64,000 bases of DNA from Sphingomicrobium nitratireducens (GTDB taxonomy: Bacteria; Pseudomonadota; Alphaproteobacteria; Sphingomonadales; Sphingomonadaceae): the NCBI RefSeq assembly GCF_026157035.1, contig NZ_JANJZA010000001.1, positions 289,001 through 353,000 on the forward strand, given 5' to 3'. Made by a program: the position numbers and the translations under genes. This document shows, in pieces, positions 15,458 through 20,209 of the stretch. The notes under the pieces are model-generated. The model made no database searches. It was not told where the DNA came from and was given only the letters and a program-made list of their open reading frames with translations. The number at the start of each line of letters is the position of its first letter. Position 1 is the first letter of the stretch.

Positions 15458-16291
15458 TCAATTTGCACAGGCCTGCGCCTGTCTAGGTGCCCGTTTGGAT
15501 TTTGTTGCGGAGGCCAAGTCTTCGACGACTCGTTCGACGGCGACCGCATGGTCTCCGGACTTTGCCGCCGCCGCGACGATAGCGCTCCCGCTGATCACGC
15601 CTGCGGCGCCCGCGTCGAGGCTTGCGCGGACCTGTGCTGCCGTGCCGATGCCGAATCCCAGGACAGGCGGCGGGGCGCCGAGGGCGGCGAGCCGCTCGAA
15701 CAGGCGGGTATGGTCGAGTTCCATGTCGTCCTTCGCGCCCGTCACCCCCTTGCGCGCCACGCAATAGGTGTAGCCGCCCGCGAGCCGAGCGATGGCCGCG
15801 AGGGCTTGGTCGGGCGTATTGGGGGCCGCGATCAGGACCGGTGCGATGCCTGCGGCACGGATCGCAGCCGCAAAGGGCGCGGCCTCGAGCGAGGGGATGT
15901 CGGCGAGGAGCAGGCTGTCGACGCCCGCCTTCGCCAGTTCGCCCGCGAATTGCCCGACCCCGCGCGCGACCGCGATATTGGCGTAGGTGAGGATGCCGAT
16001 CGGGATGTCGGGATGGCGCGCGCGGATGGTCGCGATCACCTCGAGGCATTTGCTCGGCGTCGTCCCCGCGCCCAATGCGCGGCAAGCAGCCGCCTGGATG
16101 ACGGGTCCGTCGGCGACCGGGTCGGAGAAGGGAATACCGAGCTCGAGCATGTCCGCGCCGCCTGCGATCGCCGCCTCGATCATCGCCTCGCTGGCGCCAA
16201 GGTCGGGATCGCCGATCATCAGGAAGGCGCCGAACGCTCCGCGTCCCTCTTCGCGGCAGGCGGCGAACATGGCGTCATAGCGGCGGGTCAT
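15458..16291 (-). CDS. trpA: Tryptophan synthase alpha subunit
   Basis: 277 residues. It cleaves indole-3-glycerol phosphate and passes indole to TrpB. The catalytic acids are Glu50 (Leu-Glu-Leu-Gly) and Asp61 (Val-Ala-Asp-Gly-Pro). The local wording Leu-Gly-Ile-Pro-Phe-Ser-Asp-Pro and [10 protein letters not shown] resembles gammaproteobacterial TrpA more than the Leu-Gly-Met-Pro-Phe-Thr-Asp-Pro form usual in sphingomonads. The ATG overlaps the trpB stop as ATGA, and it is the last gene of the trp operon. Confidence 0.96.
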
Positions 16292-17466
16292 GCGCCGCCT
16301 CCCAGGAGCGCCTGCGCCTGCGCCATGTCCTTGTCGCCGCGCCCCGACAGGTTGACGAGAAGCACCAATTCCTTGCCCTCGCGTTCGGCCTGGTCCGCGA
16401 GCTTGAGCGCATGGGCCACCGCGTGCGCGCTTTCGAAGGCGGGAATGATCCCTTCGCGCCGCGCCAGAGTCCGGAACGCGTCGAGCGCTTCGCGGTCGGT
16501 GACCGGCACATAAGTGGCGCGGCCCGTCGCGGCGAGGTGCGCATGCTCGGGGCCGACCGCGGGGTAGTCGAGGCCCGCCGAGACCGAATGGCTGTCGACC
16601 ACTTGCCCGTCTTCGTCCTGCATCAGCATCGTGTGCGCGCCGTGGAGGATGCCGGGCTTGCCGTGCCCGATCGTCGCGCCGTCACGCCCCTTGCCGTCGC
16701 CGCCTGCCTCGCAGCCGATCAGCGCGACCTCGGCATCGGGCACGAATTCGGTGAAGATGCCGATCGCATTCGAGCCGCCGCCGACGCACGCGACGACCGC
16801 GTCGGGCAGGCGGCTCTCCATCGCGAGCATCTGTTCGCGCGCTTCCTTGCCGATCACCTTCTGGAAGTCGCGCACCAGCGTCGGGAAGGGATGCGGGCCC
16901 GCGACCGTGCCGAGCAGGTAATGCGTGTCCTCGAAACTCGCGGTCCAGTCGCGCAGCGCCTCGTTGACCGCGTCCTTGAGAGTGCGCCCGCCGCTTTCGA
17001 CCGGCACCACCTCGGCGCCCATCAGCTCCATGCGGAACACGTTGAGCTGCTGCCGCGCGACGTCCTCGGCGCCCATGTAGATGCGCGTCTCGAGCCCCAT
17101 CAGCGCGCCTGCCATCGCGGTCGCCACGCCATGTTGCCCCGCGCCCGTCTCGGCGATCAGCCGCAACTTGCCCATCCGTTTCGCCAGCAGCGCCTGCGCG
17201 AGCACCTGGTTGGTCTTGTGCGCGCCGCCGTGAAGCAGATCCTCGCGCTTCAGGTAGAGGCGCACCTTTTCGCTGCCGAGGTTGCGACAACGGGTCAGCG
17301 GGGTCGGGCGCCCGGCATAGGTGGTGAGGAGGTGCTCGAGTTCGGCGGCGAAGGCCGGGTCGGACTGCGCGTCGAGGAAGGCGGCTTCGAGCTGCTCGAG
17401 CGCGGGCAGCAGGATTTCGGGCACGAACGCGCCGCCGAAATCGCCGAAGCGGGTCTGCATCAACAT
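16288..17466 (-). CDS. trpB: Tryptophan synthase beta subunit
   Basis: 392 residues from the ATG at 17466, which has GGAGG eight bases upstream; a second ATG at 17460 overlaps the trpCF stop as TGATG. The PLP lysine is Lys84 in Gly-Ala-His-Lys-Thr-Asn, and Gly-Gly-Gly-Ser-Asn binds the cofactor phosphate. The opening [13 protein letters not shown] and the segment Glu-Thr-Gly-Ala-Gly-Gln-His-Gly resemble enterobacterial TrpB. It makes tryptophan from indole and serine. Confidence 0.96.
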
Positions 17467-18836
17467 CGCGCGGCCCTCCGGTCGGCAGGGCGCAGCGCGG
17501 CGAAAAGGGCGGCGACCTTGCCCGCATCCTTCTCGCCAGGGCGCGCCTCGATTCCCGATCCGATGTCGAGCCCGTAGGCGCCGAGCCTCGCCGCGTCGCG
17601 CGCGTTGGTGGGACCGATGCCGCCCGCGAGGAACGCCTTTCGCAGGTCCGGCCGTCCCGCGATCGCTTTCCAGTCGAAGGCGTGACCCGTGCCTCCGCTG
17701 CGCCCGTCTGCAATTGTGTCGAACAGGGTTCGGTCGCCGCCACGCGGTGGGGCGGCGTGGTCGCCTACCCCGCACAGCGTCCAGATTTCGCTCGACCGGG
17801 GGAGGTGGCGGCGCAGGCTCTCGATCATCGCGCCCGTTTCGCGCCCGTGAAGCTGGATCGCGTCGAGCCCGAGCCGGCTGGCAGCGTCCGCCACCGCGCG
17901 AGGTCCCTCGTCGCGGAACACGCCCACCGTCTTCAGGCCCGAGGCGCGCGCGGTCTCGGCCAGCGTGGCGGCGCGGTCGATCGCGACGGCGCGAGGCGTG
18001 CCCGGGACCATGATCAGCCCCGCATGGGTCGCGCCTTGGCGTGACGCGAGCGCGATATCTTCTTCGCGCGTCAGCCCGCACAACTTGATCGGTCCGTGGA
18101 CCAGCGCGCGCGCGGCGAGGTCGATGTCGGGGGCGGCCATCAGCGCCGAGCCGACAAGGAAGGCGTCGACCATCGGCGCGAGCCGCTCGACGTCGCGTCG
18201 CCCGGCGATGCCGCTCTCGCTGACGAGGATGACGTCATCGGGGACGAGCGCGGCGAGCCGTTCGGTGGTGGCGAGGTCGACCCGCAGGCTCGCAAGGTCG
18301 CGATTGTTGATGCCGACGAGGATCGCGCCAAGCGCGAGCGCGCGGCCCAGTTCGTCCTCGTCGCGCACCTCGACCAGCACGTCCATGCCCAAGCGCCGCG
18401 CCTCGGCCATGACGGACCTCGTTTGCTCGTCGTCGAGGACCGAGAGCATGGCGAGCACTGCGTCGGCGCCCGCGCGCCGCGCCTCGGAAACCTGCGCGGG
18501 GTCGACGATGAAGTCCTTGGCGAGGATCGGCCCGTCAAAGTCGCGCCGCACGACTTCGAGCAAGTCGAGCGAGCCGCCGAAATCCTCCTCGTCGGTCAGC
18601 ACGCTGATCGCGTCGGCAACCGGGCGGTAGGCGGCGAGCGCGTCGCGTTCGTGGTGGAGCGCGCGGTGCCCCGAAGGCGAGCGCGGCTTGATCTCCATGA
18701 TGAAGCGCACGCCCGGCTTCGAAAGCGCCGCCCTCAGCGAGCGATGCGTCGGCGCGGCCTCGACCGGCTGGCCGCCGAGCCGTGACGCCATTTCCTGCCG
18801 CTTGCGCGCGACGATGCGGGCGAGGACGTCAACCAC
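17460..18836 (-). CDS. trpCF: Bifunctional indole-3-glycerol-phosphate synthase / phosphoribosylanthranilate isomerase (TrpC-TrpF fusion)
   Basis: 458 residues in one uninterrupted frame from a GTG at 18836 with GGAGG six bases upstream. Residues 1-246 are TrpC: Glu-Ile-Lys-Pro-Arg-Ser-Pro-Ser (Lys50), Ala-Lys-Asp-Phe (Lys107), Ile-Asn-Asn-Arg-Asp, and Ser-Glu-Ser-Gly-Ile (Glu207). Residues 249-458 are TrpF: Lys-Leu-Cys-Gly-Leu-Thr (catalytic Cys253), Gln-Leu-His-Gly and Gly-Gly-Thr-Gly-His-Ala-Phe-Asp-Trp. The domain order and C-terminal wording match the enterobacterial TrpCF enzyme. The start lies inside the end of trpD, so translation is coupled. Confidence 0.95.
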
Positions 18837-19896
18837 GGCTCGCCTCCACGAATCGGTCGAGCAGGTGTCCGGCCGCGCCGCTGTCGATCGTATTGGCCGC
18901 TCTCGCCGCGCCGTCACGAAGGTCTGTAGCGACGCCTGCCGTCATCAGCAGTGCTGCCGTGTTGAGGATGGTGATGGCGCGATCCGCCTGCCCGCCCGTG
19001 CCGTCGAGCAGGGCGCGCAGCCGCTTCGCGTTGGTCGCAGGATCGCCGCCGGTGACGACGTCGAGCGGCTGGCGCTCGAGCCCGGCATCCTCGGGACGGA
19101 TCGTCATGTCCTCGGTGCGCCCGTCGCGCAGCAGGAGGGCGCGGGTCTCGCCGTGGAGGGCGACTTCGTCGAGACCCGCGCCGTGCAGCACCAGCGCGTG
19201 GGTCACGCCGGTCGCCGCGAGCGTCGCCGCGATCCGGTTCAGGAGGGCCGGGTCGGCAACGCCGAGAAGCTGGACGGGCGGGCGCGCGGGATTCACGCAC
19301 GGGCCCAACAGGTTCATGATCGTGCGCACGCCGAGCTGACGCCTGACCGGTGCGGCATGCTTCATCCCGGGATGGAAGGCGGGCGCGTAGAGAAAGCAGA
19401 AGCCGAGTTCATCGAGCATTTCGCGTGACCGAGCGGGCGCGGGATCGAGCCTGGCACCCAGTGCCTCGAGCACGTCGGCCGAGCCGCAGCGCGAGGACAC
19501 CGAGCGGTTGCCGTGCTTGGCGACTGGCAGGCCGGACGCGGCGGCGACCAGAGCGGTGGCGGTCGAGACGTTGATCAGCCCCGACCCGTCCCCGCCCGTG
19601 CCGCAACAGTCCGCGAACAGATAGTCGGGCCGCTCGAACGGGGTCGCGGCGGACTGGAGCGCGCGGGCGGCGCCCGCCATTTCGGCGGCGGTCTCGCCCT
19701 TCATCCGCAGCGCGATCAGCATCGCGCCGATTTCGGCTGGCTCGAGCAGGCCGAGCACGAGCCGCTCGAACAATAGCTGCGCGTCCTCGTCGCCGAGCGA
19801 TTCGCCTTCGAGCAGGCGCGGCAGCGGATTGGGCACGGGCCCGCGGTCGGCGGGCAGGCGGGCAGCGCCGGCGGGCGCGGTAGCGGTCATCAACAT
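18829..19896 (-). CDS. trpD: Anthranilate phosphoribosyltransferase
   Basis: 355 residues from the ATG at 19896, with AAAGGAAG upstream at a suitable distance; an ATG at 19890 is also in frame. Family motifs are Cys-Gly-Thr-Gly-Gly-Asp-Gly (PRPP site), Asn-Val-Ser-Thr, Lys-His-Gly-Asn-Arg and Asn-Leu-Leu-Gly-Pro. It joins anthranilate to PRPP. It is the first structural gene behind the trp leader; trpE and trpG are not in this window. No glutamine amidotransferase domain is fused to it. Confidence 0.95.
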   Translation of the reverse strand: MLMTATAPAGAARLPADRGPVPNPLPRLLEGESLGDEDAQLLFERLVLGLLEPAEIGAMLIALRMKGETAAEMAGAARALQSAATPFERPDYLFADCCGTGGDGSGLINVSTATALVAAASGLPVAKHGNRSVSSRCGSADVLEALGARLDPAPARSREMLDELGFCFLYAPAFHPGMKHAAPVRRQLGVRTIMNLLGPCVNPARPPVQLLGVADPALLNRIAATLAATGVTHALVLHGAGLDEVALHGETRALLLRDGRTEDMTIRPEDAGLERQPLDVVTGGDPATNAKRLRALLDGTGGQADRAITILNTAALLMTAGVATDLRDGAARAANTIDSGAAGHLLDRFVEASRG

Positions 19897-19918
19897 GATT
19901 ATTCTTCCTTTCGGGCAA

Positions 19919-19944
19919 CAAAAAACCCGCCGGGTTGCGGCGGG
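19919..19944 (-). terminator. trp attenuator terminator
   Basis: On the minus strand CCCGCCG pairs with CGGCGGG (7 perfect base pairs, 5-base loop) and runs straight into TTTTTT. It sits between the trpL stop and the trpD ribosome-binding site, where a transcription attenuator is expected. A second hairpin, GGTGAA/TTCACC with loop CCTCA (19962-19978), overlaps the trpL stop codon and could be an alternative pairing partner. Confidence 0.85.
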
Positions 19945-19975
19945 TCTTCAAGAGGTCATCGGTGGTGAATGAGGT

Positions 19976-20083
19976 TCACCGACCGCGCCATCGCGCCGCC
20001 GAAAGGAAGGGCGTGCGCCACCACCACAGGCCGCCGGCAACGGCGGTGCGGTCGAGCTGGGTCGAGAGGCGGGTCTCACGCAT
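19976..20083 (-). CDS. trpL: trp operon leader peptide with three consecutive Trp codons
   Basis: A 35-residue frame from the ATG at 20081-20083 to the TGA at 19976-19978. Residues 20-22 are Trp-Trp-Trp (bases 20018-20026) and residue 32 is also Trp. This is far above chance for a rare amino acid and is the signature of ribosome-mediated attenuation: stalling at these codons when charged tRNA-Trp is scarce would block the downstream terminator. There is no ribosome-binding site upstream, and the ATG coincides with the predicted transcription start, so the mRNA is probably leaderless. This arrangement is known for rhizobial trpL. Confidence 0.85.
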   Translation of the reverse strand: MRETRLSTQLDRTAVAGGLWWWRTPFLSAARWRGR

Positions 20084-20090
20084 GCATGCG

Positions 20091-20119
20091 AGACTTGGCC
20101 GGATCGGGTTCCAAGTCAA
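20091..20119 (-). promoter_or_regulatory. Promoter of trpL-trpDCFBA
   Basis: On the minus strand TTGACT (20114-20119) is an almost consensus -35. After 17 bases AAGTCT (20091-20096) occupies the -10 position, and seven bases later comes the A of the trpL ATG. The -10 match is weak, but the spacing makes a leaderless start at 20083 likely. Confidence 0.55.
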
Positions 20120-20176: not shown

Positions 20177-20186
20177 CGTTTCATCG

Positions 20187-20202
20187 TTCTAACACGTTGT
20201 AA
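20187..20202. promoter_or_regulatory. Dyad operator candidate before yerC
   Basis: TTCTAACACGTTGTAA has perfect twofold symmetry at TTnnAACnnGTTnnAA. It lies just downstream of the predicted his transcription start and ends 7 bases before the yerC ATG. This is a natural place for autoregulation by the TrpR-family protein that yerC encodes. Confidence 0.5.
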
Positions 20203-20209
20203 CAGGCTC

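Follow-up and report, generated by a model that had tools for sequence, protein, structure and literature searches.

The trpD-trpCF-trpB-trpA genes of Sphingomicrobium nitratireducens are very probably controlled by a cis-acting, ribosome-mediated tryptophan attenuator carried on a predicted leaderless mRNA. The attenuator lies within a 64,000-nt stretch of DNA, which as a whole is called the window here. What was observed or computed is the set of sequence elements and how well they are conserved, the switch in silico, and which genes are present. From these we infer the exact transcription start, the stalling and the Trp-dependent read-through.

The leader locus upstream of trpD

A first-pass annotation of the sequence had proposed a 35-codon trpL with three consecutive Trp codons and a fourth, and a TTGACT placed so that transcription would start at the A of the ATG. 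All of these elements were found on the minus strand, with TTGACT 36 nt before the ATG (Table 1). An overlapping ATG slightly upstream (20087) begins a frame of just 3 codons; it is the second ATG (MRE...) that is kept in relatives. An intrinsic terminator does stand before trpD, as the annotation had claimed, but its stem is longer than the perfect 7 bp given there. The arms ACCCGCCG/CGGCGGGU form 8 bp, mostly G-C, or 12 bp when weak flanking A-U/G-U pairs are counted. Downstream of the terminator the gene order is trpD-trpCF-trpB-trpA.

Table 1. Features of the trpL leader and the operon downstream (window coordinates)
Feature	Position	Strand	Basis
-35 element TTGACT of trpL promoter	20119-20114	minus	Sequence; TTGAC spacing kept in 26/26 leaders
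Putative -10 AAGTCT	20091-20096	minus	17-nt spacing only; weak match, inferred
Predicted transcription start, A of trpL ATG (leaderless)	20083	minus	Conserved TTGAC spacing; uncertainty 0-3 nt
trpL, 35-codon leader peptide MRETRLSTQLDRTAVAGGLWWWRTPFLSAARWRGR	20083-19976, stop included	minus	Sequence and relatives
trpL stop TGA	19978-19976	minus	Sequence
Trp codons 20-22 (consecutive), proposed stalling site	20026-20018	minus	Sequence, folding
Fourth Trp codon (codon 32)	19990-19988	minus	Sequence
Region 1, 5' arm of 1:2 hairpin GCGCACGCC	20010-20018	minus	MFE fold
Region 2 CGGCGGCGC, partner of region 1 or of region 3 (antiterminator)	19993-20001	minus	Folding, alignment
Region 3 GAAGACCCGCCG, terminator 5' arm and antiterminator partner	19938-19949	minus	Folding
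Region 4 CGGCGGGTTTTTT, terminator 3' arm and U-run	19920-19932	minus	Sequence, folding; 7-bp core conserved
Intrinsic terminator	19949-19920	minus	Between trpL and trpD
Shine-Dalgarno-like AAGGAAG of trpD	19904-19910	minus	Sequence
trpD, anthranilate phosphoribosyltransferase	18829-19896, ATG 19896	minus	TIGR01245, 382 bits
trpCF fusion	17460-18917, start not refined	minus	NF006945, 467 bits
trpB	16288-17481, start approximate	minus	Translation; assigned by sequence resemblance
trpA	15458-16291	minus	Translation; assigned by sequence resemblance

In silico, the element has the sequence characters of a trpL-class attenuator. A small ORF containing tandem Trp codons lies upstream of a trp structural gene, an intrinsic terminator separates the two, and a mutually exclusive antiterminator is favored by stalling in the computed folds of the window's leader, with the same trend in 26 leaders. 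It falls outside both Rfam families of this kind that were compared. Trp_leader (RF00513) scored 18.6 bits on the window RNA against a gathering cut-off of 41, and RcsR1 (RF02552), with a cut-off of 60, reached 14.1 bits; the latter family is located before trpE(G), whereas this trpL is located before trpD. At the gathering score Rfam matched only tRNA and no leader. Sub-threshold matches to anti-hemB, ar14 and the rnk leader were set aside, since all they have in common with the element is a GC-rich terminator. The Escherichia coli trp leader works by the same logic, with Trp-codon stalling, an antiterminator and a terminator, but its trpL has a 5' UTR and precedes trpE.

On the opposite strand, a his operon begins with a YerC/TrpR-like gene and hisG (NCBIfam). 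An imperfect inverted repeat, GTTCTAACACGTTGTAACA, lies at 20185-20205, just before hisR (20210), and a similar stretch occurs in L105. The YerC/TrpR-like regulator may use this repeat as its operator.

Conservation of the leader in the genus

Conservation was examined in 37 genomes, consisting of this genome and 36 others of the same Sphingomonadaceae genus retrieved via the TrpD protein. In most of them, a short reading frame upstream of trpD contains a Trp run and ends in AARWR. A covariance model was built from 26 aligned leaders; the window's own leader, which was among them, matched it with an E-value of 3e-22. With this model, a Trp-run leader and terminator were found to precede trpD in 27/37 genomes, a number that is our own tally from match positions and includes weak matches in G007 and G019 as well as G034, whose trpD is fragmentary. 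In 7 further genomes aroF, trpE, trpG and trpD are contiguous in this order, and the leader precedes them.

Small ATG-started ORFs with a WWW run number three in the window, compared with none in 30 dinucleotide shuffles. The run by itself was rejected as proof of a trpL, because two other small WWW ORFs lie within the window. What identifies the leader is that the genus has conserved the arrangement as a whole, and the trpL-terminator arrangement before trpD is not due to chance.

Beyond the genus, a Trp-run leader and terminator were seen directly before trpD in another genus (L244) and in another family of the order (L245). Many other order-wide matches were weak (E above about 1e-6). They look like chance terminators, and one (L254) overlaps a tRNA-like stretch, so they were not accepted as leaders. 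No convincing leader was found before trpE when 20 TrpE-upstream loci from other families of the order were scanned; these contained only scattered Trp-containing small ORFs. In this genome itself, the only other match listed (C1:74618-74782, E 0.016) lacks a Trp run and was therefore not accepted as a second trpL.

Proposed switch and start of the leader mRNA

In the proposed mechanism, RNA polymerase would initiate at the start codon of trpL or no more than about 3 nt away from it, and the leaderless mRNA would be translated co-transcriptionally. If charged tRNA-Trp were scarce, the ribosome would stall at Trp codons 20-22 and mask region 1. Region 2 (CGGCGG) would then be free to pair with region 3 before region 4 is made, allowing read-through into trpD. 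If Trp were plentiful, the ribosome would reach the stop codon beyond region 2 and the terminator would form. Termination would release a short attenuator RNA of ~164 nt.

The switch was computed by folding the leader with a ribosome at different positions. When the ribosome was placed at Trp codons 20-22 and region 4 was not yet made, CGGCGG (20001-19996) paired with the terminator 5' arm (-27.2 kcal/mol). The expected number of upstream-paired bases in this arm was 6.9 in the stalled state and fell to 1.3 when the ribosome was placed at the stop codon. Without a ribosome, 6.8 bases of region 3 are expected to pair in this way. The naked RNA of the window's leader thus favors the antiterminator, and full termination seems to need translation that reaches the stop codon. 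Across the 26 leaders, a ribosome at the first Trp codons left 5-8 bases of the terminator 5' arm in upstream pairing, compared with about 1-2 for a ribosome at the stop codon; the contrast was least clear in L105, where the stop-codon value was 4.6. The attenuator reading of the first-pass annotation holds across the genus in silico, with the same fold switch in all 26.

The full leader folds more stably than its shuffles (z-score -2.8). Two features point to constraint on the RNA. The AARWR block is conserved at the codon level. A CGA codon is present at region 2 or just 3' of it in 26/26 leaders, and across seven genes of the window CGA encodes only ~5% of the arginines; a codon that is rare and yet invariant suggests constraint on the RNA rather than on the peptide. 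Covariation in relatives, which had been suggested as a check, bore out one part of the structure. The 7-bp core of the terminator is conserved and its closing pair shows G-C/A-U compensation, while regions 2 and 3 vary too little for covariation of the antiterminator to be shown.

The trpL mRNA is predicted to be leaderless. Since the putative -10 is weak, the exact transcription start is predicted from the -35 spacing. In 26/26 leaders the distance from TTGAC to an in-frame start codon, ATG or GTG, is 35-39 nt, while the sequence between differs, and the background frequency of TTGAC is 0.00155 per nt. The start codons were chosen with this spacing in mind, although the choice was unique for most leaders, and the 26/26 figure is thus supportive of the leaderless start that had been predicted earlier rather than an independent test of it. 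On average across the 26 leaders, no Shine-Dalgarno signal above background precedes the trpL starts: the mean energy of anti-Shine-Dalgarno pairing was -3.1 kcal/mol, compared with -2.4 at random sites (sd 2.6), and was -1.7 kcal/mol before the window's start.

Two other readings of these data were weighed. It is unlikely that transcription truly starts further upstream and gives trpL an ordinary 5' UTR, a situation in which attenuation would still work. The weak -10 would fit this, as would the purine-rich stretches before the start codon in some relatives (lowest anti-Shine-Dalgarno energy -12). The conserved spacing and the average lack of a Shine-Dalgarno signal argue against it, and 119 leaderless transcripts have been documented in Zymomonas mobilis, another Sphingomonadales species (PMC7566282). 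The other reading concerns the products of the leader. In Sinorhizobium meliloti, trpLE(G) is regulated by the same attenuation mechanism and the ATG of trpL is reported to be the 5' end of the attenuator RNA (PMC7298713); this RNA (rnTrpL/RcsR1) destabilizes trpDC mRNA, and the peptide (peTrpL) affects a resistance operon (PMC7298713, PMC7143759). Both systems are alphaproteobacterial and share tandem Trp codons and an antiterminator/terminator switch, but the S. meliloti leader stands before trpE(G) and encodes 14 aa, whereas the leader here stands before trpD and encodes 35 aa. By analogy, the attenuator RNA, the peptide or both might act mainly in trans, with cis attenuation secondary, and the small, predicted leaderless mRNA with its Trp run and terminator does resemble the rhizobial one (PMC7298713, PMC7143759). 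We consider this quite unlikely. In S. meliloti trpDC is the trans target, whereas here trpD is the cis target. The leader peptide shows little conservation beyond its Trp run; it ranges from 19 to 35 aa and its N-terminus varies freely in the genus, which argues against a conserved trans peptide, the codon-level conservation of AARWR is constraint of the RNA type, and the RcsR1 model match is below its cut-off. A cis-acting attenuator on a predicted leaderless mRNA is preferred to both.

Probable anthranilate synthase loss and other leaders

The annotation had remarked on the placement of trpL before trpD rather than trpE. This placement is real, and it has a genomic context: no trpE is detectable here, and relatives have split or reduced trp operons. 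No protein of this genome matched PF04715, and its one PF00425 protein is a PabB-PabC fusion. TrpE proteins of the genus match PF04715 weakly or not at all, which makes PF00425 the more reliable sign of trpE absence. Judged from these domain matches, TrpE is undetectable in this genome and the operon now begins at anthranilate use, which explains why the attenuator guards trpD. The sole trpG/pabA-type protein is encoded beside a gene that we take to be lexA, downstream of a presumably PpiD-like gene. A type II DAHP synthase was found, and a trp leader was looked for before its gene and not found.

An aroF-trpE pair is present in 21/37 genomes with a Trp-run leader before each, two of which were found only by reading the sequence. 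In split-operon relatives, one trpL stands before aroF-trpE and a second before trpD. The pair is missing in the other 16 genomes, and 13 of these 16 have a kynureninase match, versus one to three of the 21 aroF-trpE genomes (Fisher p 2e-6 to 6e-5, values inflated by shared ancestry). Neither the pair nor a kynureninase match was found in this genome, G014 and G019. Kynureninase was accordingly rejected as the anthranilate source of this genome, which may instead rely on uptake or on a PabB-PabC fusion that acts in an unusual way.

On the well-supported branches of the TrpD tree, no fewer than three changes of the trpE-less state are needed. G019, which is trpE-less with trpL before trpD, pairs in this tree with G018, which has the contiguous operon. 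This pairing suggests a deletion of aroF-trpE-trpG in the G019 line. In G025, a neighbor with the same hisR flank, a second trpL (MRELRRLQPIFLPAIPALGWWWRSPERWRARG) stands before a frameshifted trpG (L251), and we read this sequence as a remnant of a lost aroF-trpE-trpG operon.

A comparable placement is reported in Chlamydia felis, where a trpL candidate precedes the anthranilate phosphoribosyltransferase gene and anthranilate synthase has been lost (PMC3937554). The candidate leader there is also Trp-rich and precedes the gene of the same enzyme, and the group obtains anthranilate from kynurenine (PMC3937554). C. felis differs in its unrelated lineage, its TrpR repressor and its kynU within the operon, while this genome has no detectable kynureninase; an attenuator structure was not reported there.

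Could the leader be a relic, persisting after the pathway died with the loss of trpE? The missing PF04715 match, the PabB-PabC fusion as sole PF00425 protein, the undetected kynureninase and the frameshifted trpG of the close relative G025 would all be compatible with decay. Such an outcome is nonetheless very unlikely. All four genes from trpD to trpA are intact in the window, as are the promoter, peptide frame, region 2 and terminator, and many relatives without trpE, most of which have kynureninase, have retained the same leader.

Three near-complete genomes (G015, G022 and G023) lacked matches to PF00425 and type II DAHP synthase, and PF00793 was matched only in frames of 286-341 aa, which may be KDO8P synthase. 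They possibly lack the shikimate pathway, yet have retained trpL-trpD and kynureninase.

We found no description of this element in this bacterial group in the open-access papers searched. It represents a textbook attenuator moved to a different control point, and the evolutionary steps by which the switch is kept, duplicated and reassigned as the operon splits and the first enzyme is lost can be followed within one genus. A broader reading joins the Trp leaders (trpD, aroF-trpE) with Trp-rich leaders (TonB-dependent receptor/TauE-like transporter) and Tyr-codon leaders (phenylalanine hydroxylase). Tentatively, and with slightly less than even confidence, we suggest that the genus, having lost anthranilate synthase repeatedly, may use leaderless ribosome-mediated attenuators to run its metabolism of aromatic amino acids, and that trpD may serve the salvage of kynurenine/anthranilate and not de novo synthesis. 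If this view of trpD as a salvage gene is true, Trp-controlled trpD expression would be a direct readout of anthranilate/kynurenine use in free-living sphingomonads.

Other candidate leaders were noted in the same genus. In L246, L252, L253, L265, L266, L256 and, more weakly, L255, a terminator accompanies a leader that contains Tyr codons (e.g. ASYYYMREAGTS, NYYRCEVGTG). The gene that follows in L246 is a phenylalanine 4-monooxygenase (NCBIfam), and those that follow in L252, L253 and L256 look alike. This is a likely Tyr attenuator. Trp-rich leaders with terminators are present at L233:3621-3781 (ARWWRWHTELTGAREWRWRKG) and L235:1199-1361 (GQWRWRPAKAGARAWRWRKG). A TonB-dependent receptor of 916 aa is encoded directly after the former, which suggests that uptake is under Trp attenuation. 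In L237, L239 and L240, a second trpL copy stands before a TauE/SafE-like transporter gene (Pfam for L237), which in L239 and L240 is adjoined by a 2OG-Fe(II) oxygenase.
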